From assembly GCA_017398045.1 (NCBI GenBank), contig JAFQHI010000025.1:186001-250000 (forward strand): DNA of 64,000 nucleotides, in the 5' to 3' direction. This DNA is from Alistipes sp. (GTDB lineage: Bacteria > Bacteroidota > Bacteroidia > Bacteroidales > Rikenellaceae). A program made the translations under genes and the position numbers. The notes below the pieces were generated by a model, which was not told the origin of the DNA, made no database searches, and saw nothing but the letters and a program-made list of their open reading frames with translations. Positions 12,587 to 47,287 of the stretch are shown here, piece after piece (position 1 is the first letter of the stretch; each line of letters starts with the position of its first letter).

Positions 12587-12606
12587 TACAGCGATAACAA
12601 AAAAAG

Positions 12607-12640
12607 AAAAAGACAGGCCGTGAAGGTCTGTCTTTTTTTT
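12607..12640 (+). terminator. Rho-independent terminator after the OstA-like gene
   Basis: AAAAGACAGGCC pairs with GGTCTGTCTTTT with one mismatch, around a short loop, followed by a run of T. It lies 20 bases after the OstA-like stop. Confidence 0.8.
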
Positions 12641-12660
12641 GGTAATGGGGGAAGGCTTGC

Positions 12661-12750
12661 TAAAGGTTGCTAAAGGTTGCTAAAGGTTACTAAAGGGAGC
12701 TAAAGGTTACTAAAGGGAGCTAAAGGTTACTAAGGGGAGCTATAGGTTTC
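12661..12750 (+). repeat. Decamer array R1 (TAAAGGTTGC type)
   Basis: Nine consecutive 10-base units without a gap: TAAAGGTTGC twice, then alternating TAAAGGTTAC and TAAAGGGAGC, then degenerate TAAGGGGAGC and TATAGGTTTC. It lies between the terminator of the OstA-like gene and the stop of the convergent YidE-like gene. A 7-base array continues directly from it. Confidence 0.9.
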
Positions 12751-12810
12751 AACTTTCAACTTTCAACTTTCAACTCTTTGCTCTTCGCTCTTCGCTCTCT
12801 CCTCTTTCCT
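12747..12810 (-). repeat. Heptamer array abutting the YidE-like stop codon
   Basis: A 7-base period: TTTCAAC four times, TCTTTGC, TCTTCGC twice, TCTCTCC, TCTTTCC on the plus strand. Read from the YidE-like gene (minus strand) the stop codon is followed at once by AGGAAAG, AGGAGAG, AGCGAAG repeats, then TTGAAAG repeats, then the decamers. Confidence 0.9.
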
Positions 12811-14472
12811 CTACAATAACATCATCAGCACCACCTGGATAATCACGACACGCAGGAACATACATATGGGATAGACCGTGGCGTATGCTACCGAGGGGTT
12901 GTCGCCCTCGATGGTGTCGTTGGCGTAGTTCAGGGCCATCGGGTTTGCCATCGAACCGCACATCAGACCGCATATCGAGCCGAAATCGAGTCGCCACCAC
13001 CGCAAGGCGGCCAGAGCCACCACGAAAATCGGTACCACGGTCAGCAGGCCTCCAAGCACTAACCAGAGCATTCCCTCGGGACGGACAATCGTTTCGAAGA
13101 AGCGTGCGCCGGACGAAAGGCCGAGGCAGGCCAGGTAGAGGTCCAAACCCAGGGCGCGGAGCATCATGTTGGCACTTTGGGTCGTGTAGGTAATCATGTG
13201 CAGACGCGGACCGAAGGTGCCAATCAGAATACCCACCAAAATCGGTCCTCCGGCCAGACCCAATCGCACGGGGACCGAAATACCCGGCATCGAGAAGGGA
13301 ATATAGCCCAGCATCAGACCCAAAATCATACCGATAAAGACCGATACGAGGTTCGGCTCGTTGAGGCTCTTCACGGCATTACCCAGGATTTTCTCCACGT
13401 GTTTGATATCGGCCGCTTCACCCACCACGGTCAGACGGTCACCGAGTTGCAGCACCAAATCGGGCGTGGCGAGGAGCTGTACTCCCGAACGATAGACGCG
13501 CGAAATATTGATGCCGTAGTTGTTTCTGAGGCGCAACGATGCGAGGCGTTTGCCGTTGATTTCGGGACGTGTGATGAGGATGCGTTGCGAAATCAGCTCG
13601 CTGTCAATCTTGTTCCAGTCGATGTTCTCGGCATTCCAATCCTTGGCCTCCTGCTCGCCGAAAATCAGCCGCAGGGCATCGGCCTCGTGGGGCGTGGTGA
13701 TGACCATCAGCACATCCCCCTCCTGCAACTCTTTATCCGAGGTGGGTATCGAAACGTGACCCTCGCGCCACAGACGCGAAATAACAAAGTGGTGCTGGCT
13801 CTCCGATGCCACCTCCGAGACCGTCTTCCCAAAGACGGCCGGATTCGTCAAACGGTAGGAGGCGATGAAGATGTTTTTGCGATGCTCGGCATCGGGACCC
13901 GTCAGGTCACCCGGTCGTACAAACCCTTTGCGCAGCAGCACGATGGCCAAAATGACACCCACGACACCAAACGGATAGCAGAGGGCGCAACTTAACGCTG
14001 CACCGCTGGCATCGATGCCGACCTGCTCCAGGGTCTGCTGGGCAGCACCGAGGGCCGGGGTGTTGGTCGTGGCTCCGCACAAAATACCCGCCATATCCGA
14101 CATCGGCACCCCAAAGAAGAGGCTTAAGGCGACCGCCATCAGCGTACCTAACAGCAAAATCGCCAGCGAGGGGATGAGCAGACGCACCCCTTCGGTACGC
14201 ATCGAGGAGAAGAAGCCGGGGCCGACCTGCAATCCCAAGGCATAGACAAACAGCACCAAGCCAAACGACTCGGCATATTTGAGCATCTGGGCATCAATCG
14301 AGAGTCCGAGGTGGCCGGCCAGAATACCTACAAAGAAGATAAAGGCCGTGCCGAGCGAGATGCCAAGCACCTTGATGCGCCCCAGCAGGACACCCGCAGC
14401 CGATATGAGCGAAAGGACGATAATCGCTTGCAGGGCAGAGTGTTCGATAAATAGCAGTCTGAAGTAATCCAT
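12811..14472 (-). CDS. YidE/AspT-family putative transporter
   Basis: A 553-residue membrane protein of the aspartate:alanine exchanger/YidE-YbjL family. The N-terminal membrane half contains GRIKVLGISLGTAFIFFVGI and LVLFVYALGLQVGPGF. Two cytoplasmic RCK_C (TrkA-C-like) domains follow at about residues 205-375 (ISRLWREGHVSIPTSDKELQ and LRLRNNYGINISRVYRSG), then a second membrane half ending in LCGSMANPMALNYAN. This is the usual duplicated layout. The substrate is unknown; relatives exchange dicarboxylates or amino acids. It is flanked by decamer arrays on both sides, and its stop codon touches a heptamer array. Confidence 0.9.
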   Translation of the reverse strand: MDYFRLLFIEHSALQAIIVLSLISAAGVLLGRIKVLGISLGTAFIFFVGILAGHLGLSIDAQMLKYAESFGLVLFVYALGLQVGPGFFSSMRTEGVRLLIPSLAILLLGTLMAVALSLFFGVPMSDMAGILCGATTNTPALGAAQQTLEQVGIDASGAALSCALCYPFGVVGVILAIVLLRKGFVRPGDLTGPDAEHRKNIFIASYRLTNPAVFGKTVSEVASESQHHFVISRLWREGHVSIPTSDKELQEGDVLMVITTPHEADALRLIFGEQEAKDWNAENIDWNKIDSELISQRILITRPEINGKRLASLRLRNNYGINISRVYRSGVQLLATPDLVLQLGDRLTVVGEAADIKHVEKILGNAVKSLNEPNLVSVFIGMILGLMLGYIPFSMPGISVPVRLGLAGGPILVGILIGTFGPRLHMITYTTQSANMMLRALGLDLYLACLGLSSGARFFETIVRPEGMLWLVLGGLLTVVPIFVVALAALRWWRLDFGSICGLMCGSMANPMALNYANDTIEGDNPSVAYATVYPICMFLRVVIIQVVLMMLL

Positions 14473-14530
14473 AAACCTAACCTAATCGGCTGCGAAGATA
14501 CGCTAAGTCGCGCGGAATACCAAATAAAAG

Positions 14531-14640
14531 GGGAATTAAGGGCAGCTAAGGGTGGCTAAGGGCGACTAAAGTACTACTCCCTTTAGTAACCTTTAGCAGC
14601 CTTTAGCTCCCTTTAGCTCCCTTTAGCTCCCTTTGCCTCC
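14531..14640. repeat. Decamer array R2 with inverted arms
   Basis: Four forward units (GGGAATTAAG, GGCAGCTAAG, GGTGGCTAAG, GGCGACTAAA) are followed by a 10-base centre. Six or seven units in reverse orientation come next (CTTTAGTAAC, CTTTAGCAGC, CTTTAGCTCC three times, CTTTGCCTCC). The 10-base phase is kept across the centre. The two arms are partly complementary and could fold into a long hairpin. It lies between the yidE-like start and the dksA-like terminator. Confidence 0.9.
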
Positions 14641-14652
14641 CCTTCAATAACT

Positions 14653-18737: not shown

Positions 18738-18870
18738 TAAGAATGAAGAATGAAGAATTAAGAATTTAAGGGCGATTAAGGGTGGATAAAGGGGGCTAAA
18801 GGTTGCTATGGGGTTTCTTTAGTATCCTTTAGTATCCTTTAGCTCCCCTTAATAGCCCTTAATAACACAG
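18738..18870. repeat. Decamer array R3 with inverted arms, plus AT-rich heptamers
   Basis: The block starts with 7-base units (GAATGAA twice, GAATTAA, GAATTTA). Forward decamers follow (GGCGATTAAG, GGTGGATAAA, GGGGGCTAAA), then a short centre, then reverse decamers (AGTATCCTTT twice, AGCTCCCCTT, AATAGCCCTT). As in R2, the arms are inverted and in phase. It lies between the ileS promoter and the 3' end of the ABC exporter gene. Confidence 0.85.
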
Positions 18871-18933
18871 TAACAGCGTAACATAGGTGTACCCCCTGTT
18901 ACGCTGTTGCTTTTGTTACGCTCTTACTCCGTT
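18869..18933 (-). repeat. GCGTAAC repeats and hairpin at the 3' end of the ABC exporter gene
   Basis: AACAGCGTAAC and GTTACGCTGTT form an 11-bp perfect inverted repeat around a 14-base loop. GTAAC recurs at short intervals up to and including the stop codon of the exporter gene (GCGTAACGGAGTAAGAGCGTA on the minus strand). There is no T-run, so it is not a standard terminator. Confidence 0.65.
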
Positions 18934-20761
18934 ACGCGAAACTCTGCATCTCAATCAGATGGGCGTAGATGCCGCCCTTCTTGACCAGCTCGTCGTGCGT
19001 ACCCTCTTCGGCAATCTTACCCTCGCTTACGACCAGAATCTTGTCGGCATCCTGGATGGTCGAAAGACGGTGGGCGATGACGACCGACGTGCGCCCCTTG
19101 AGGAGCTTACCCAAGGCCTCCTGCACCAGCTTTTCGCTTTCGGTGTCGAGGGCCGAGGTAGCCTCGTCGAGAATCAGGATTTCGGGATTCTTCAGCACGG
19201 CACGGGCAATCGAAAGTCGCTGACGCTGACCACCCGAGAGCTTCGAGCCGCGGTCGCCGATGTTGGTTTGGTAGCCTTCGGGTGCCTGCTCGATAAATTC
19301 GTGGGCGTTGGCCACACGGGCGGCAGCCACAATCTCCTCGTGCGTAGCTGTGGGCTTACCCATCTTCAGGTTGCCCTCAATCGTGTCGTTGAACAGCACG
19401 GTCTCCTGCGCCACGATGCTCATATGGGCGCGGAGCGACTCCTGCGTATAGGCATCGAGCGATACTCCGTCGATGAGAATTTCACCTTGTTGCGGGTCGT
19501 AGAAGCGCGGAATCAGCTCCGAAAGGGTCGATTTACCACCGCCCGAGGGGCCCACCAAAGCGACCGTCTCACCGCGCTTGATGCTGAACGATACGCCATC
19601 AATCACATCGCGCTGACCATCGTAGGAGAAGTGGACATTGCGGAACTCGATTTTCTCCTTCAGCCCCTCGAATTGACGGGCATCCTGCTTGTCCTCGATG
19701 GCGGGTTTCGAGTCGATAATCTCGAAGATACGCTCACCGGCAGCAATACCCTGGTTGATATTGGCAAATTGGTCCACGAAGTGGCGCACGGGGCGGGTGA
19801 TTTGCGAGAAGATGGCCACAAAGGCGATGAACGAACCCGGGTCGAGCGAGCCGTTACCGACCAGAATACCGCCAAAGACCAGCACCACGCCCACGGCCGA
19901 GATGCCGAGGAATTCGCTCATGGGCGAGGCCAGCTGCTGGCGACGCGCCATCGAGAGGGTCAGCTCGGCAACATCGGAGTTGATGCCGTAGAAATTGCCC
20001 TTTACGTAGTCTGTGGCGTTGTAGCTCTTGATGACCTTCACACCTGCCAACGATTCGTCGAGGGCCGAAACCATCTCACCCAGACGTTGTTGGTTCGTGC
20101 GTGCCGGATGGCGCAGTCGCTTCACGATGCTGCCAATGAGCAGTGCCACCAGGGGCAGGAACAGCACCGAGAAAATCGACAACTCCCACGAAAGGATAAT
20201 CATCATGGCAACGTAGCCGATGATGAGGAACGGCTCGCGGAAGGCCACCAGCAGGGTGTTCGTGATGCAGAACTGCACGACATTCACGTCGGCCGTGATG
20301 CGCGAAATGATATCGCCCTTCTGCTGGTCGCTGAAGTAGCCCACGTGCATATCCATCACGCGCGAGAACATCGCGTCGCGCATACGTTGCAGGGTGCGGG
20401 CGCGCATCGACTCCACGGTCCAGGCTCCGAGGTAACGGAACAGATTGCTCAAGAAGCTGATGAAAATCGTGAACAGAGCCAACATAATCAGCACCTTCTG
20501 TCGGTCATACTCGGGGTAGATTTGCGAGTAGGTGTAGTTGAAGAAGGTCGTCAGATACTCCGTATTAAACTCCACGGGGGGCAACTCGGTGACCCGCTCA
20601 AAGGTGTAGTCGGGGTCGAACATCGTGTTCATGATGGGGACAATCAACACGAAGGTCAGCGAGTTGAAAATCGCATAAAAGAGCGAATAGAAGAAGTAGG
20701 GTATGGCGTACTTTTCGATGGGTCGGGCAAAGCCCAGCAGTCGAAGGTAGGTCTTAAACAT
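18932..20761 (-). CDS. MsbA-like ABC exporter (fused permease and ATPase)
   Basis: A 609-residue half-transporter with six predicted membrane helices in residues 1-320 and an ABC domain in 360-605. The ABC domain has Walker A GPSGGGKST, a signature LSGGQRQRLSIARA, Walker B ILILDEATSALD and an H-loop VVIAHRLSTI. Type IV ABC exporters of this kind flip lipids (MsbA, lipid A) or export drugs. The nearby LPS genes fit MsbA, but the substrate cannot be read from sequence alone. The gene lies downstream of rnhA on the same strand, with its own -7 box. A GCGTAAC-rich hairpin touches its 3' end. Confidence 0.88.
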   Translation of the reverse strand: MFKTYLRLLGFARPIEKYAIPYFFYSLFYAIFNSLTFVLIVPIMNTMFDPDYTFERVTELPPVEFNTEYLTTFFNYTYSQIYPEYDRQKVLIMLALFTIFISFLSNLFRYLGAWTVESMRARTLQRMRDAMFSRVMDMHVGYFSDQQKGDIISRITADVNVVQFCITNTLLVAFREPFLIIGYVAMMIILSWELSIFSVLFLPLVALLIGSIVKRLRHPARTNQQRLGEMVSALDESLAGVKVIKSYNATDYVKGNFYGINSDVAELTLSMARRQQLASPMSEFLGISAVGVVLVFGGILVGNGSLDPGSFIAFVAIFSQITRPVRHFVDQFANINQGIAAGERIFEIIDSKPAIEDKQDARQFEGLKEKIEFRNVHFSYDGQRDVIDGVSFSIKRGETVALVGPSGGGKSTLSELIPRFYDPQQGEILIDGVSLDAYTQESLRAHMSIVAQETVLFNDTIEGNLKMGKPTATHEEIVAAARVANAHEFIEQAPEGYQTNIGDRGSKLSGGQRQRLSIARAVLKNPEILILDEATSALDTESEKLVQEALGKLLKGRTSVVIAHRLSTIQDADKILVVSEGKIAEEGTHDELVKKGGIYAHLIEMQSFA

Positions 20762-29085: not shown

Positions 29086-29140
29086 TTGGACGACTTTTTG
29101 CTGAAGCAGCCCCAAAAGGAGCGTGGGCGAAAAAGGTTTT

Positions 29141-29190
29141 CCCTGAAGTCACCTTAAGTCACTTTAAGCACCCTTAAGCCCCCTTTCCCC
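29141..29190 (-). repeat. Decamer array R4 (CCTTAAG type)
   Basis: Five in-phase 10-base units: CCCTGAAGTC, ACCTTAAGTC, ACTTTAAGCA, CCCTTAAGCC, CCCTTTCCCC. It lies between the convergent ends of kdsD and the ferredoxin gene. This is the most degenerate of the arrays. Confidence 0.75.
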
Positions 29191-32649: not shown

Positions 32650-33531
32650 ATGCAGGAGCAACTGACACCCGATTTTCGGGACTATGAACTCATCGACTCG
32701 GGCGACTTCGAGAAGTTGGAACGCTTCGGGCGCATCGTGACACGCCGCCCCGAACCGCAGGCCATCTGGCATAAGTCGCTCTCGGAGCAGGAGTGGCAAC
32801 GCCTGGCCGATGCCTCGTTTTTGCGCGATGAACGCAGTGAGGAGCGTGGCGAGTGGCGCGTAAAACCCCAAACGCCCGATCGTTGGACGATTACCTATCG
32901 CTATCGGGAGATGCAACTTAAGATGCGCTTGGCGATGACCTCGTTTAAGCACGTCGGCATCTTCCCCGAGCAGGCCGCCAACTGGAATTTTATCTACGAC
33001 AACTGCCGTGCGCTTGCCGCAAAGGGAACGCCCCGCGTGTTGAATCTCTTTGCCTACACGGGCGGTGCTACGCTGGCGGCACGTGCTGCTGGGGCCGAGG
33101 TTACACACGTCGATTCGGTGAAGCAGGTGGTGACCTGGTCGCGCGAAAATATGGAGCAGAGCGGTCTGGATGGAGTGCGCTGGATGGTGGAGGATGCCTT
33201 GAAATTTGTGCGTCGTGAGGTGCGCCGTGGCAATCGCTACGAGGGTATCATCCTCGACCCGCCCGCCTATGGACGCGGTGCAAATGGTGAGAAGTGGGTG
33301 CTGGAGGAGAACATCGGCGAAATGCTTGCCTGCTGTGCGGAGTTGTTGGCCGAGAAGGATGCCTTCCTGGTGCTGAATCTCTACTCGATGGGACTCTCCT
33401 CGACCTTGGCCCGCACGGCTGTGCGCCAAGCCTTTGGCCAGCCGAAAGCGGAGCAGTATGGCGAATTGACCTTCACCGACCGTGCCGGCAAGGAGCTTCC
33501 GCTCGGCACGTATTATCGCTTCAAGCGATAA
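32650..33531 (+). CDS. Class I SAM-dependent methyltransferase (RlmI-like core)
   Basis: The 293-residue protein has the SAM-binding Rossmann motif VLNLFAYTGGATLAARAAGA, an acidic residue in VTHVDSVKQ and the catalytic-region motif GIILDPPAYGRGANGEKW. This set occurs in RlmI/RlmK-type RNA methyltransferases, but the PUA domain of RlmI is absent, so the target is uncertain. Coupling to the RlhA-like gene suggests an rRNA or tRNA substrate. The stop codon is followed at once by a 7-base AGAGCGA-type repeat array. Confidence 0.88.
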   Translation: MQEQLTPDFRDYELIDSGDFEKLERFGRIVTRRPEPQAIWHKSLSEQEWQRLADASFLRDERSEERGEWRVKPQTPDRWTITYRYREMQLKMRLAMTSFKHVGIFPEQAANWNFIYDNCRALAAKGTPRVLNLFAYTGGATLAARAAGAEVTHVDSVKQVVTWSRENMEQSGLDGVRWMVEDALKFVRREVRRGNRYEGIILDPPAYGRGANGEKWVLEENIGEMLACCAELLAEKDAFLVLNLYSMGLSSTLARTAVRQAFGQPKAEQYGELTFTDRAGKELPLGTYYRFKR

Positions 33532-33593
33532 AGAGCGAAGAGCAAAGAGCAAAGAGGGAAAAGAGAAAAAGAGTTGAAAGTTGAAAGTTTCCT
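33532..33593 (+). repeat. Heptamer array abutting the methyltransferase stop codon
   Basis: Directly after TAA: AGAGCGA, AGAGCAA twice, AGAGGGA, AAAGAGA, AAAAGAG, TTGAAAG twice, with strict 7-base spacing. It is the same sequence class as the array at 12747-12810, read from the gene end. Confidence 0.9.
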
Positions 33594-33670
33594 AAAACCC
33601 TTAAGCCCCCTTAAGCCCCCTTAAGCATCTTTAACTATCTTTAAGAACCCTTAAAAAGTAACTTTAAGCA
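33594..33670 (+). repeat. Decamer array R5 (TTAAGCCCCC type)
   Basis: Units with 10-base spacing: TTAAGCCCCC twice, TTAAGCATCT, TTAACTATCT, TTAAGAACCC, TTAAAAAGTA, ACTTTAAGCA. It follows the heptamer array and precedes the small membrane protein gene by 18 bases. Confidence 0.88.
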
Positions 33671-43090: not shown

Positions 43091-43170
43091 TAAGGGGGCT
43101 TAAGGGAGCTTAAGGGAGCTTAAGGGGGCTTAAGGGGGCTTAAGGGTACTTAAAGGGTGCTAAAGGTTAT
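43091..43170 (+). repeat. Decamer array R6 (TAAGGGAGCT type)
   Basis: Eight in-phase 10-base units: TAAGGGGGCT, TAAGGGAGCT twice, TAAGGGGGCT twice, TAAGGGTACT, TAAAGGGTGC, TAAAGGTTAT. It is the most regular array in the window. It is followed by TTTCAAC-type heptamers at 43180-43225. Confidence 0.92.
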
Positions 43171-43174
43171 TCCT

Positions 43175-43350
43175 TTCTATCTCTCAACTTTCAACTTTTA
43201 ACTTTCCACTTCCTTCGCTCTTTAACCCACCTTCGGTGGCTTGACTTTGCTCCGGCTCGGCATCACGCAAGCGTGTGCGCTCGCCTTAATCGCAAAGTTA
43301 TCTCTTTCCTCTTCGCTCTTCGCTCGTTGCTCTATCCTCTTTCCTGTTCA
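43175..43350 (-). repeat. Heptamer arrays at the 3' end of the hybrid regulator gene
   Basis: One block (about 43180-43225) has TCTCAAC, TTTCAAC, TTTTAAC, TTTCCAC, TTCCTTC, GCTCTTT units. A second (about 43301-43337) has TCTTCGC-type units and lies inside the last codons of the regulator gene. Between them are two short hairpins (CCACC TTC GGTGG; CACGC AA GCGTG). Confidence 0.8.
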
Positions 43351-46300
43351 GATACTCCGTGGGCGAAATGCCGTAGAATTTGCGGAAGGCGGTCGAGAAG
43401 TGGGTCTGGCTGCTGAAGCCCACCATGTAGGCCACCTGCGAAATGTTTACTTTGCGTTCGGCAAGCAGTTCGGTAGCCTTTTTAAGGCGGATGTTGCGGA
43501 TAAACTCACCCGACGAGATGCCCGTCAGCTCCTTCAGGCGTCGGTGGAGTTGGGCGCGGCTTAAGCCGACCTCCTCGGCCAACATTTCGACCTTCAGTTC
43601 GGGGTTGTCGAGGTTGTCGTTCACGATTTTCATCACGCGCTCCATCAGCACATCGTTGTTGGCCTTCAGCTCCACCTCCTTGATTTTATCCTCCTGGTGC
43701 GCACCCGAGAATTTGCCGCGGATGCGTTGGCGGTTCTTGAGCAGGTTGTCAATCAAAATCTGCAATTCGTCGATGTGGAAAGGCTTGGCCATGTAGCCAT
43801 CGGCACCAAACTCCAACCCCTCGATGCGGTCGCTCTGCTCGGCCTTCGAGGTGAGCAGAATGGTCGGGATGTGGGAGGTGTTGGGGTGGCTCTTGAGCCG
43901 TTTGAGGAGTTGCAAACCATTCAGACCGGGCATCAAAACATCCGACACGATGAGGTCGGGAAGCTCCGTGAGGGCGCGTTGTAACCCCTGCTCGCCATCG
44001 CCAGCGGTGAGGATTTTGTAGGCATCGGAGAGCGACTCCTCGAGGAAGAGACGAATCTCCTCATCATCGTCAATGACCAGAATACGGTGTCGGCTCTTCG
44101 AACGCACGTTGCGCTCACGCTTTGGCGTGGCGGATTGTTCGTTGAGGATGGTACGCATGGGTGCCTGCTCGCTGCTGTCACCCTCGGCAATCAGCCCATG
44201 CGGTTGAGGCAGCAGGATGGTGAAGATGGCCCCTCGGCGGTCTCGTCTGTTGGCTGCCGAGATACAGCCCCCTTGCAACTCGACCAACATACGGCAGAGA
44301 TTCAATCCGATACCGAATCCGCGAGTCTTCGACTCTTGGCTGCCCTCGCCTTGATAGAAGCGGTCGAAGATACGCTCCAGCTCATTTTCGTCGATACCCG
44401 GGCCACTGTCGCTGACGCAGATTTCCGCTTCGCCCGTATCTTGTCGGAAACTCAATCCCACGATGATTTCTCCGCCATCGGGGGTGAATTTCAGGGCATT
44501 GGTAATCAGGTTGGCCATAATCGTATCCAGGTGGTTGGGGTCGGTTTGGAAGAGCATCGACTCCATCGGATGGTCGAACGCCAGACGGATGTTGCGCTTC
44601 TCGGTCTGGTAGCTGTAGGCGGAAAGCGATTCGGTGATGTGGGCCACCAGGTCGCACAGTTGCCGTTGTACGGTCATCTGTCCCGTGTCGAGTTTGCGGA
44701 TGTCGAGGAATTGTCCCAGCAGACGGATGATGCGCTTGGTGTTGCGTTGCATGGTCTGGAGGGCCTGTATCGATTCGTGGTCGGTGGTGCGCTTCAGGAG
44801 CGATTCGATGGGGTTGAGGACCATCACCATCGGGGAGCGAATCTCGTGGGCTACGTTGACGTAGAATTTGAGCCTCGTTTCGTTAATCTCCTCGCGACGA
44901 CGACGCAGAATGTTTCCGATGATGAGCCAGCTGATGGCCACCAGCACCACCGCATAGAGGATAAAGGCGGGCAGGGTGGCATACCAAGGACGGTCGATGC
45001 GGATGTGGATGCGACGCGCACCATTCATCACGCCATCCTCGTCGGCATAGACGTCGAGTGTGTAACGCCCCGGGCGCAGGTGGTTATAGGTGATGCTGTA
45101 TTGCCCCTGCGGGGTGGTGTTCCATTCCGAGCCGAGACCGGTGAGTCGGTAGCGGAAGCGGATATTCTCCGCCTTGCGGAAGGTCATGGTCGAGAAGAAG
45201 AGCGTCAAGGTGTTCTGGTTGTGCGAGAGACGCAATTGGTTGGTCTCCGTAAGCGGCTGCTCGCTGACGGGGTCACCCGAACGGGTGCGCGTAAGGCTCG
45301 TGACGGGTTGGTTACCGATATACATACGGGTCAGCAGCACCTCACGATGGGTGTTGCTGCGCGAGATGGGCGATTGGAAACGGGTGATGCCGTAGCTGTC
45401 GCCAAAGAAGATGGCCGTGCCGTCCGAGTAGTAGGAGCCGCGGATGTATTCGCGCTTGGTGGCTCCACTGCCTGCGTAGTAGTTGATGATGCTGTTATCC
45501 TGGATGTTGAGGCGGTTGATGCCGCGGAAGGTGCTGCACCAGATGTCGCCCGAACGGTCCTCCGCAAGCCCGCAAATCATGTTGCTCGATAGGCCGTTGT
45601 CGGTCGTGTAACGCTCGTAACGGCCATACTGCTCGTTCCAGACAAAGAGTCCGCTGTTGGTGCCAATCCAAATCGACCCGTCGCGCGATTCGGTGAGCGC
45701 GTACGTAACGGCGCGATTCAGCAGGGCATCCGTGGCGATATCGAGGTACTGCTCGTTGCGGGTGTCGTAGCACGATACACCGAGGTAATGGCCAATCCAG
45801 AGACGCTCTTTCGAGTCGATGAAGAGGCGATTGACATAGGAGTTGCGCAGTAACCGTTGGTTTTCGCGCTCACTCGTTGGCAGCGGTGTTCCCTGCATCA
45901 GACGCGGGTTGTATCGCCAAATACCTCCGCCAAGCAGACCGACGTAGATGCGCCCCTCGTGGTCGAGGGTCAGGCTCTTGACACGCTGTCCGTTGAATTC
46001 GGGAATGGCGGTGAGGGTGCCGGTGGCGCGGTTGAGGGTGTAGAGACCCGAATAACCCACACCTATCCATATCCTGCCCCGCTCATCCTCCAAAAAGGCA
46101 CTCGCATCGCCCGAGAGCTGTCTGCGTCGCAGCATATTACCTGCTTCGTCCAATTCGAAGAGGGTGCCATCCTGCGTGCCGGCCAGCAGGGTGCCGTCGC
46201 GGAGCTTGTAGATGGCCATCGTGGCACCGTAGTCGTTGCGGTGGGGGAGCTTTTCGATGGTCGAGAAGTCCCACACGTCGAAGGTGGCCGGTACCGAAGG

Positions 46301-47287
46301 AATCATGACGATACCGCGCTGAAAACAGCCACACCACAGATTTCCCTCGCTATCCTCCATCAGTTTTACGGTGTTGGCATTGCGAATGTTCAACTCGTTG
46401 GGGAAGGAGACGGCATACTCTTCGAGGGCCTTTTTCTCCTCGTTGATGCGCCACAGTCCGTTGCGGAAGGTGGCCACGATGAAGTCGCCACCGGGTCGTT
46501 GCAGCAGGTCGTAGGTGTCGAGATAGAGATTTTGAGGCACTCGAAGCTGCTCGAATCGACGCTCTATTTCGTTGAAAACGAATATTTTACCCCCCCCCGC
46601 AGCGATTATCATACCGTTGCGGTTCGTCTCGACCAACGTCACGGGGTCTTTCGCTGCGTTGGTCAGTGCGTAGTGCGTCACGCGCGTGAAGTCGTTCTCT
46701 ATGCAATAGATGCCTCGCTCCTCGGTGGCAATCCAGATGCGTTTGTGCGAATCTTCGTGAAAATGGTTGATGTGGTCCGTGTCGCACAGCTCGGTTACGC
46801 GGCTCAACGGTCTTGCCGTCATCTGTTCGGGATTCAGCGTGAAGATGCCCAGACGCGATACGGCAAGCCATATCTCGCCCGACGAGAGCTGTTTGATGGC
46901 CGATACGTTGGGGGTGTAGCCCGTCCCCTCGAACGTGACCCGATGGAAGGTGTCGCTACCGGCATCGTAGCGTTGCAGTCCGGTTTGAAAACCGACCCAC
47001 AGGTTGCCCTCACGGTCGCTGTTGAGCGAACGAATACCGTTGCTCATAATGGAGAGCGAGTCGTGTTCGTTGTGGAGGTATTCGATGAAGTGCAATCCGT
47101 CGAATTTGTTGAGTCCGTACTCCGTACCTATCCATATATAGCCCTTGTCGTCTTGGTGAAGCGTCGTGATAAGACTCGAGGAGAGTTGCCCCGCTCCATA
47201 GAAGCGACTCTGTATGCCAAGCGTGTTTTGCGTAAGAAGCAACGCGCCAATGAGTAGCAACGCGCGAACGAATAGCCAATGTTTCAT
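43298..47287 (-). CDS. Hybrid two-component system regulator (propeller sensor, kinase, receiver, AraC)
   Basis: A 1329-residue one-protein signalling system typical of Bacteroides glycan loci. An N-terminal signal leads to a periplasmic sensor of repeated reg_prop blades (GYIWIGTEYGLNKFDG, GNLWVGFQTGLQRYD, GRIWIGVGYSGLYT) and a Y_Y_Y domain. One membrane helix follows at about 772-793. The cytoplasmic part has HisKA with His814 in VAHEIRSP, HATPase (GSGPGIDENELE-like region, GFGIGLNLCRMLV), a receiver domain with phospho-Asp1115 in IVSDVLMPG and an AraC-type HTH ending near 1315. It is divergent from susC and probably activates susCD, perhaps also GH115. A run of nine G sits at residues 230-233. 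The last 13 residues are encoded by repeat sequence. Confidence 0.94.
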   Translation of the reverse strand: MKHWLFVRALLLIGALLLTQNTLGIQSRFYGAGQLSSSLITTLHQDDKGYIWIGTEYGLNKFDGLHFIEYLHNEHDSLSIMSNGIRSLNSDREGNLWVGFQTGLQRYDAGSDTFHRVTFEGTGYTPNVSAIKQLSSGEIWLAVSRLGIFTLNPEQMTARPLSRVTELCDTDHINHFHEDSHKRIWIATEERGIYCIENDFTRVTHYALTNAAKDPVTLVETNRNGMIIAAGGGKIFVFNEIERRFEQLRVPQNLYLDTYDLLQRPGGDFIVATFRNGLWRINEEKKALEEYAVSFPNELNIRNANTVKLMEDSEGNLWCGCFQRGIVMIPSVPATFDVWDFSTIEKLPHRNDYGATMAIYKLRDGTLLAGTQDGTLFELDEAGNMLRRRQLSGDASAFLEDERGRIWIGVGYSGLYTLNRATGTLTAIPEFNGQRVKSLTLDHEGRIYVGLLGGGIWRYNPRLMQGTPLPTSERENQRLLRNSYVNRLFIDSKERLWIGHYLGVSCYDTRNEQYLDIATDALLNRAVTYALTESRDGSIWIGTNSGLFVWNEQYGRYERYTTDNGLSSNMICGLAEDRSGDIWCSTFRGINRLNIQDNSIINYYAGSGATKREYIRGSYYSDGTAIFFGDSYGITRFQSPISRSNTHREVLLTRMYIGNQPVTSLTRTRSGDPVSEQPLTETNQLRLSHNQNTLTLFFSTMTFRKAENIRFRYRLTGLGSEWNTTPQGQYSITYNHLRPGRYTLDVYADEDGVMNGARRIHIRIDRPWYATLPAFILYAVVLVAISWLIIGNILRRRREEINETRLKFYVNVAHEIRSPMVMVLNPIESLLKRTTDHESIQALQTMQRNTKRIIRLLGQFLDIRKLDTGQMTVQRQLCDLVAHITESLSAYSYQTEKRNIRLAFDHPMESMLFQTDPNHLDTIMANLITNALKFTPDGGEIIVGLSFRQDTGEAEICVSDSGPGIDENELERIFDRFYQGEGSQESKTRGFGIGLNLCRMLVELQGGCISAANRRDRRGAIFTILLPQPHGLIAEGDSSEQAPMRTILNEQSATPKRERNVRSKSRHRILVIDDDEEIRLFLEESLSDAYKILTAGDGEQGLQRALTELPDLIVSDVLMPGLNGLQLLKRLKSHPNTSHIPTILLTSKAEQSDRIEGLEFGADGYMAKPFHIDELQILIDNLLKNRQRIRGKFSGAHQEDKIKEVELKANNDVLMERVMKIVNDNLDNPELKVEMLAEEVGLSRAQLHRRLKELTGISSGEFIRNIRLKKATELLAERKVNISQVAYMVGFSSQTHFSTAFRKFYGISPTEYLNRKEDRATSEERRGKR
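46590..46598 (-). repeat. Homopolymer G9 tract inside the regulator gene
   Basis: Nine consecutive C on the plus strand, hence nine G in the coding strand, encode Ala-Gly-Gly-Gly (residues 230-233). Gain of one G gives GGG TAA at once; loss of one gives a TAG nine codons later. Confidence 0.95.

Follow-up and report, generated by a model that had tools for sequence, protein, structure and literature searches.

Heptamer and decamer repeats behind stop codons in Alistipes sp. are mostly parts of a palindromic, mosaic cassette

Results

Short tandem repeats in a 64,000-nucleotide stretch of Alistipes sp. DNA (the window) and in stretches of three genomes formed a cassette of the order H> G> core G< H<. 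H stands for purine heptamers and G for TTGAAAG heptamers, and the core is a decamer hairpin (R|Y), a hairpin resembling a terminator (T), or a different small palindrome. Y denotes pyrimidine-sense decamers and R their exact reverse complement. Most copies, the three in the window included, are partial versions of this master order. The elements occupy spacers, most of them following a stop codon and many directly abutting the coding sequence; fewer lie in divergent gaps, and almost none deep inside genes. On balance, they are probably lineage-restricted, recombination-prone intergenic mosaic cassettes of gene 3' ends, in which the heptamer arms serve as adapters.

The window's genome (G000) is a 2.36-Mb draft in 56 contigs; judged by its YidE protein, it is closest among named relatives to Alistipes sp. 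and Rikenellaceae MAGs. The stretches read, 54 from G000, 32 from G027, and 16 from G024, were chosen for holding repeats, and genes were called with our own script. Fifty-two own-genome stretches were picked from H and TTGAAAG matches. All 69 exact H and all 21 TTGAAAG matches entered the lists or counts; H matches with one mismatch were taken from among the matches listed, up to contig C15, and weaker arrays elsewhere are under-sampled.

Repeat blocks in the window

An earlier note on the window had described one outward order at three gene ends, and direct reading together with Tandem Repeats Finder (TRF) bore it out: stop, H, G, Y. The Y decamers at all three loci are of the CCTTTAG/CCCTTAAG type. 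The features are as follows.

Site 1
12811-14472, minus strand: YidE-like permease gene (Pfam Asp-Al_Ex and TrkA_C)
12811-12813, minus strand: stop codon TAG (direct reading)
12777..12811, minus strand: H, flush with the TAG of the permease gene (direct reading, TRF)
12747..12775, minus strand: G, about four copies of TTGAAAG (TRF, 100% matches)
12661..12746, minus strand: Y, decamers CCTTTAGNNN (direct reading, TRF)
12597..12642, strand not given: terminator-like hairpin with flanking A/T runs (by eye; none here in the consensus terminator scan)
Site 2
32650-33531, plus strand: SAM methyltransferase gene (PF10672)
33529-33531, plus strand: stop codon TAA (direct reading)
33532..33570, plus strand: H, directly 3' of the TAA (direct reading, TRF)
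33572..33589, plus strand: G, TTGAAAG heptamers (direct reading, TRF)
33597..33657, plus strand: Y, decamers CCCTTAAGCC / CCCTTAAGNN (direct reading, TRF)
Site 3
43298-47260, minus strand: hybrid two-component regulator gene (Pfam kinase, receiver, and HTH domains)
43298..43341, minus strand: H, running through the C-terminal codons and the stop at 43298-43300 (direct reading, TRF)
43220..43299, minus strand: interruption, the 80-nt I element, on the same strand as H (dispersed in the genome, covarying stems)
43184..43211, minus strand: G, TTGAAAG-type heptamers (TRF)
43091..43166, minus strand: Y, decamers CCCTTAAGNN (TRF)
Decamers without heptamers
14525..14645, minus strand: R|Y hairpin of the same family, after a terminator-like hairpin (folding z -3.67)
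18755..18880, minus strand: R|Y hairpin adjoining a GTAACAGC-type hairpin (z -3.94, with 18755-18900 folded)
29140..29185, plus strand: Y decamers alone, between a gene end and a hairpin that is terminator-like by eye (TRF, reading)

Since H at site 3 starts before the stop, the C-terminus of the regulator is encoded by H. One or two H-like units stand between the I element and G at this site. A further unit family, GTAACGC / GTTACAG, forms hairpins with inverted arms behind stops in three genomes; copies were read at 18860-18935 of the window (minus strand), L060:2272-2414, and L142:2815-2900.

Block order

The stretches of the three genomes held 139 block clusters (G000, 75; G027, 47; G024, 17), orthologues included, so that the clusters are not independent. 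Sixty consisted of a single block and are uninformative on order; 50 and 79 clusters had two or more blocks at the two gap settings. Every adjacent unlike pair fitted the master order H> G> R Y G< H<, with no violation among 72 pairs at gaps <60 nt or among 106 pairs at gaps <150 nt. In 5000 randomisations of order and strand, the mean numbers of violations were 34.4 and 46.7, and the minima 20 and 32. Read on the opposite strand, this order comes out unchanged, so that the outward polarity is simply what appears on reading either half of an inverted repeat from its end. The composite of fixed order proposed in the earlier note thus extends to stretches of three species, and what looked like fixed polarity is one visible half of a palindrome rather than a tail running one way.

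The full H-G-Y composite occurred 12 times, nine in G000 with the three of the window, two in G027, and one in G024, so that copies exist beyond the three of the window. Nine followed a stop in sense orientation, at -28 to +101 nt, one lay at a contig edge, and two in antisense, the latter being one orthologous locus between two genes (L146/L154). Orientation to gene ends was biased without being absolute, with 9 of the 11 determinable composites in sense behind a stop.

Placement relative to genes

Of 149 heptamer runs (H or G) in the three genomes, 117 were stop-side, a score that every run in a convergent gap receives by construction; the shares were 65/82 in G000 (52 stretches and the window), 34/46 in G027, and 18/21 in G024. 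Forty-seven of the stop-side runs began at -1 to +3 of the stop, every value in this range occurring, and 28 began further inside the coding sequence. Only one of the 32 start-side runs lay at -1 to +3 of a gene start. In the stretches picked for repeats, runs were present in 32 of 40 convergent gaps in G000, 17 of 21 in G027, and 11 of 16 in G024, and in 2 of 36, 3 of 16, and 0 of 14 divergent gaps, respectively. Deep inside genes, G000 had 2 matches in 266,520 bp, and the other two genomes had none in 149,316 bp and none in 68,985 bp. The fairer test of strand is given by H runs in co-directional gaps, which split into 18 sense and 12 antisense; the bias in position is therefore much stronger than the bias in strand.

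Lineage range

The pattern GAGCRAAGAGCRAAGAG matched 219 times in G000 with up to one mismatch, compared to 0 for the backwards control; for TTGAAAG such a control is invalid, because the reversed heptamer is a rotation of itself. The exact H pattern was found in 7 of 61 genomes, all of the same genus (G000, 69; G027, 19; others, at most 4 each). Three successive TTGAAAG units with up to one mismatch occurred in 5 of the 61 genomes sampled within the genus (G027, 31; G000 and G024, 27 each; G008 and G078, 1 each). Outside long reading frames at 76 YidE loci, tandem repeats of period 5-12 were detected only in L053, L060, and L124 (contig end), by a filter that missed the short decamers visible by eye in L054. 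Among the papers listed by searches of PMC open-access articles, none was about this repeat family in Alistipes.

The I element

The interruption at site 3 that the earlier note had seen is the I element, a dispersed, structured sequence of 80-85 nt with a long form of 156 nt. Its first 15 nt were found in 8 of 61 genomes, most often in G025 (36), then in G000 (21) and G027 (9), twice each in G007, G008, G012, and G020, and once in a genome of another genus; G024 had none. In all 20 copies read (16 of 21 in G000 and 4 of 9 in G027, among them 43220-43299 of the window on the minus strand, L004, L017, L043, and L180), mostly from stretches picked for heptamers, it followed a heptamer unit on the same strand, H in 18 and G in 2.

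A two-domain structure over eight rows had 15 cells with double-sided changes compared to 5.0 in shuffles, and a covariation score of 0.237 compared to 0.097; none of 500 shuffles reached either value, and slid structures had 0 to 4 such cells. Pairs with double-sided change (6 versus 3.9, reached in 37/500 shuffles) and further pair types (9 versus 9.1, 328/500) were not outstanding, and three apical pairs do not hold up in the longer subtype. The I element is possibly a new RNA motif or a mobile repeat.

Cores between heptamer arms

The T core, called terminator-like by eye, is about 100 bp long and usually lies between opposed TTGAAAG arms; the stretches from the three genomes contained 24 copies. 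It has the form GGGAGATAGCC...GGCTATCTCCC within AGCTCAACAAAA...TTTTGTTGAGC with T runs on both strands (L011:2480-2620, L027:2360-2500, L153, L155, L177, and others). At seven orthologous loci with both flanks, its orientation differed at five and was the same at two (L024/L152 and L021/L180), an inversion inferred from three draft MAGs, in which short inverted repeats may be misassembled or population-mixed. At three of the five, the two cores were mutual nearest relatives (L153/L027, 0.98; L155/L177, 0.97; L159/L181, 0.92), and a fourth, L156/L037, was nearest one way only (0.82). The opposite T cores of L017 versus L147 and L160 are not nearest relatives, so the core was possibly replaced. 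In L024/L152, the inner hairpin loop was itself reversed. The one-flank pairs L154/L174 and L163/L175 were left uncounted; the former has its left flank in common by eye and thus the same T-core orientation.

Heptamer arms in L002, L045, and L143 enclose a second kind of dispersed hairpin core, typified by AGCGTCAT...ATGACGCT. Palindromes like TGTTCCACGTGGAACA lie behind heptamer arrays within L033:2470-2740 and L132:2990-3130 and may resemble parS/ParB sites.

Gain, loss, and swaps between species

Site 2 was empty in G024 and G027, where a 25-nt spacer without repeats leads to the next start, compared to a spacer of 156 nt in G000. Gain of the composite in its own lineage is the simpler reading, with loss in both others as the alternative. 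At the gene end of site 1, G024 had only a terminator-like hairpin (L055), G027 a different repeat hairpin in the same place (L053), and a relative from goat (L060) tandem 9-mers TTGTAACGC. By eye, a hairpin like that at 12597..12642 followed the YidE-like gene in L053 and L054, and other hairpins in L055 and L056. No orthologue of the site 3 regulator was matched in G024 or G027; matches were found in G008.

Block content differed at six orthologous gaps, four of them read (L136/L038, L142/L024, L162/L034, and L163/L002) and two compared by annotation (L157/L129 and L169/L041). Elements were common to other orthologous gaps, e.g., L146/L154, L170/L008, and L132/L033, and missing on one side at L145/L011 and L151/window. 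An absence in a sister species could be a loss. The suggestion that the element is mobile gains support from the empty site 2 in both nearest species and from the presence, absence, and swaps at these other loci.

Proposed origin of the cassettes

The swaps and flips would be accounted for most simply if cores were exchanged and inverted between arms that are nearly identical; no recombination event or intermediate was seen in the three draft MAGs. The heptamer arms would act as homology adapters, and recombination or replication template switching among near-identical short repeats would copy, exchange, and flip the cores. Arrays would spread over tolerated spacer until purifying selection at the last codons halts them, which would give the stop-flush placement, and sometimes they would pass the stop and lengthen the protein. 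Terminator cores may separate the transcription of neighbouring genes, and H-G-Y at the three window loci may be mostly tolerated 3'-UTR spacer. The stop-flush placement could equally be explained by a function at the stop.

A more far-reaching version, which we put forward only tentatively, is that of self-assembling 3'-end cassettes, in which the inverted heptamer arms would be sockets and palindromic cores, be they bidirectional terminators, hairpins of decamers, or a structured RNA, would be plugged in, exchanged, and inverted by replication template switching. The lineage would thereby rewrite the 3' ends of its genes within the divergence time of close species.

Folding and a possible role in the transcript

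Eight of nine R|Y decamer elements folded with z below -2, compared to 9 of 15 H-Y elements without G and 1 of 10 H-G-Y composites. For the three composites of the window, z against shuffles was +1.60, +0.06, and +1.13. Their folding thus does not exceed that of shuffled sequence, which leaves a hairpin role at these loci without support, and the structural site or RNA element envisaged in the earlier note holds for complete R|Y elements and does not hold for the three composites. Gaps with elements folded no better than those without, with median z of -5.42 (n=31) versus -5.45 (n=8) in convergent gaps and -2.46 (n=24) versus -3.08 (n=50) in co-directional gaps. A locus-specific hairpin of the outer arms was rejected, as shuffled partners were as good in 629 and 257 of 5000 permutations.

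No intrinsic terminator (G+C-rich stem and T run) was found within the composites by a scan of the three sites. The scan gave no hit at site 1; its three hits at site 2 all fall within the following gene, and its single hit at site 3 lies in the I element on the other strand. No Rfam match reached the gathering score in eight sources of 104,207 bases (the window and seven further loci).

The composites might instead work as 3'-end elements of the transcript, purine-rich, C-poor H and G followed by C-rich, G-poor, unstructured Y with a 10-nt period being a Rho loading site or a binding site for an RNase or protein immediately after the stop, and their order kept by selection on RNA. Rho prefers C-rich, G-poor, unstructured RNA. 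The base composition in the G000 stretches (Y, 33% C and 11% G; H, 7% C and 40% G) agrees with such a role, as do the weak folding of the window composites and the predominance of sense composites behind stops. We nevertheless consider it rather unlikely, given the strand split of co-directional H runs (18 sense, 12 antisense), the composite that is antisense in two species, the same gene ends without elements in sister species, and the strong folding of the R|Y elements.

Insertion elements, satellites, and templated tails

Insertion of a MITE- or REP-like mobile element by a transposase that targets gene ends would fit the dispersed, lineage-specific occurrence, the empty site, and the inverted-repeat order. 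It is improbable, as neither constant termini nor a clear target duplication were seen by eye and unit lengths differ, and the RAYT-type Y1 transposase family PF01797 was found in none of 10 draft genomes of the genus, compared to 5 of 14 in the control.

Independent slippage satellites, arising separately from purine-rich sequence after each stop, would agree with units that vary by substitutions and with the other tandem unit at the same place in the relative L060, and they are very improbable: the same unit families in one order occur at many genes in three species, and cores of ~100 bp are shared, cores and order across unrelated genes weighing heavily against them. A telomere-like or reverse transcriptase-templated tail was rejected, and with it the templated tail raised in the earlier note, since the substitution variants and the variable distance from the stop (-1 to +3) indicate neither a template nor a fixed register.

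Comparison with known repeat systems

By analogy, the elements resemble the intergenic mosaics known as BIMEs and NIMEs (neisserial intergenic mosaic elements), and they have arms of tandem 7-mers and palindromic cores. NIMEs are described as many-copy intergenic mosaics of RS modules (30-160 bp) and dRS3 repeats suggested for recombination, dRS3 being one unit of 20 bp that has inverted ends of 6 bp and is a phage integrase target (PMC3898611). The likeness to this published description lies in the many-copy intergenic mosaics of short repeats and modules; the arms in Alistipes, in contrast, are tandem heptamers, and the dRS3 pattern ATTCCC(N8)GGGAAT was absent from the 639,953 bases that make up the window and 102 stretches from the three genomes. 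The T cores between TTGAAAG arms, with orientations that differ and cores that appear to be replaced between species, would be a NIME-like feature if the arms recombine.

BIMEs are characterised as extragenic palindromic mosaics with >100 copies per genome and a link to transcription termination (PMC2817692), and the REP unit is given as 20-40 bp (PMC3733652). The Alistipes elements are likewise palindromic, extragenic, many-copy mosaics of several motifs, but their units are 7- and 10-nt tandem repeats, with no REP of 20-40 bp. RAYT transposases go with REP, and as noted above the family was missing from the draft genomes.

The nearest printed case is that of TAACTGA heptamer direct repeats, reported for Beggiatoaceae, Cyanobacteria, and some Bacteroidetes. 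Those repeats stand in spacers and are oriented relative to genes, and in the main genome most of them closely precede start codons; for two Bacteroidetes with TAACTGA, near relatives are stated to have shorter spacers without obvious repeats (PMC4679880). Tandem spacer heptamers with gene orientation are thus in common with that account, whereas the unit is another one, the Alistipes runs are mainly stop-side, and TAACTGA as described there has neither composite order nor decamers. Abundant heptameric repeats are also reported for Xanthomonas and Nostoc (PMC4692102), similarly plentiful as arrays but with a G-quadruplex unit and, in that description, no composite.

REP/BIME and NIME are built of fixed units tied to a transposase or phage integrase, whereas the Alistipes landscape consists of satellite-like 7- and 10-mers in a strict palindromic order, with RAYT not found. 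The differences between close species, together with T cores in both orientations, make it possible to follow by strain comparison how gene 3' ends arise and are exchanged.
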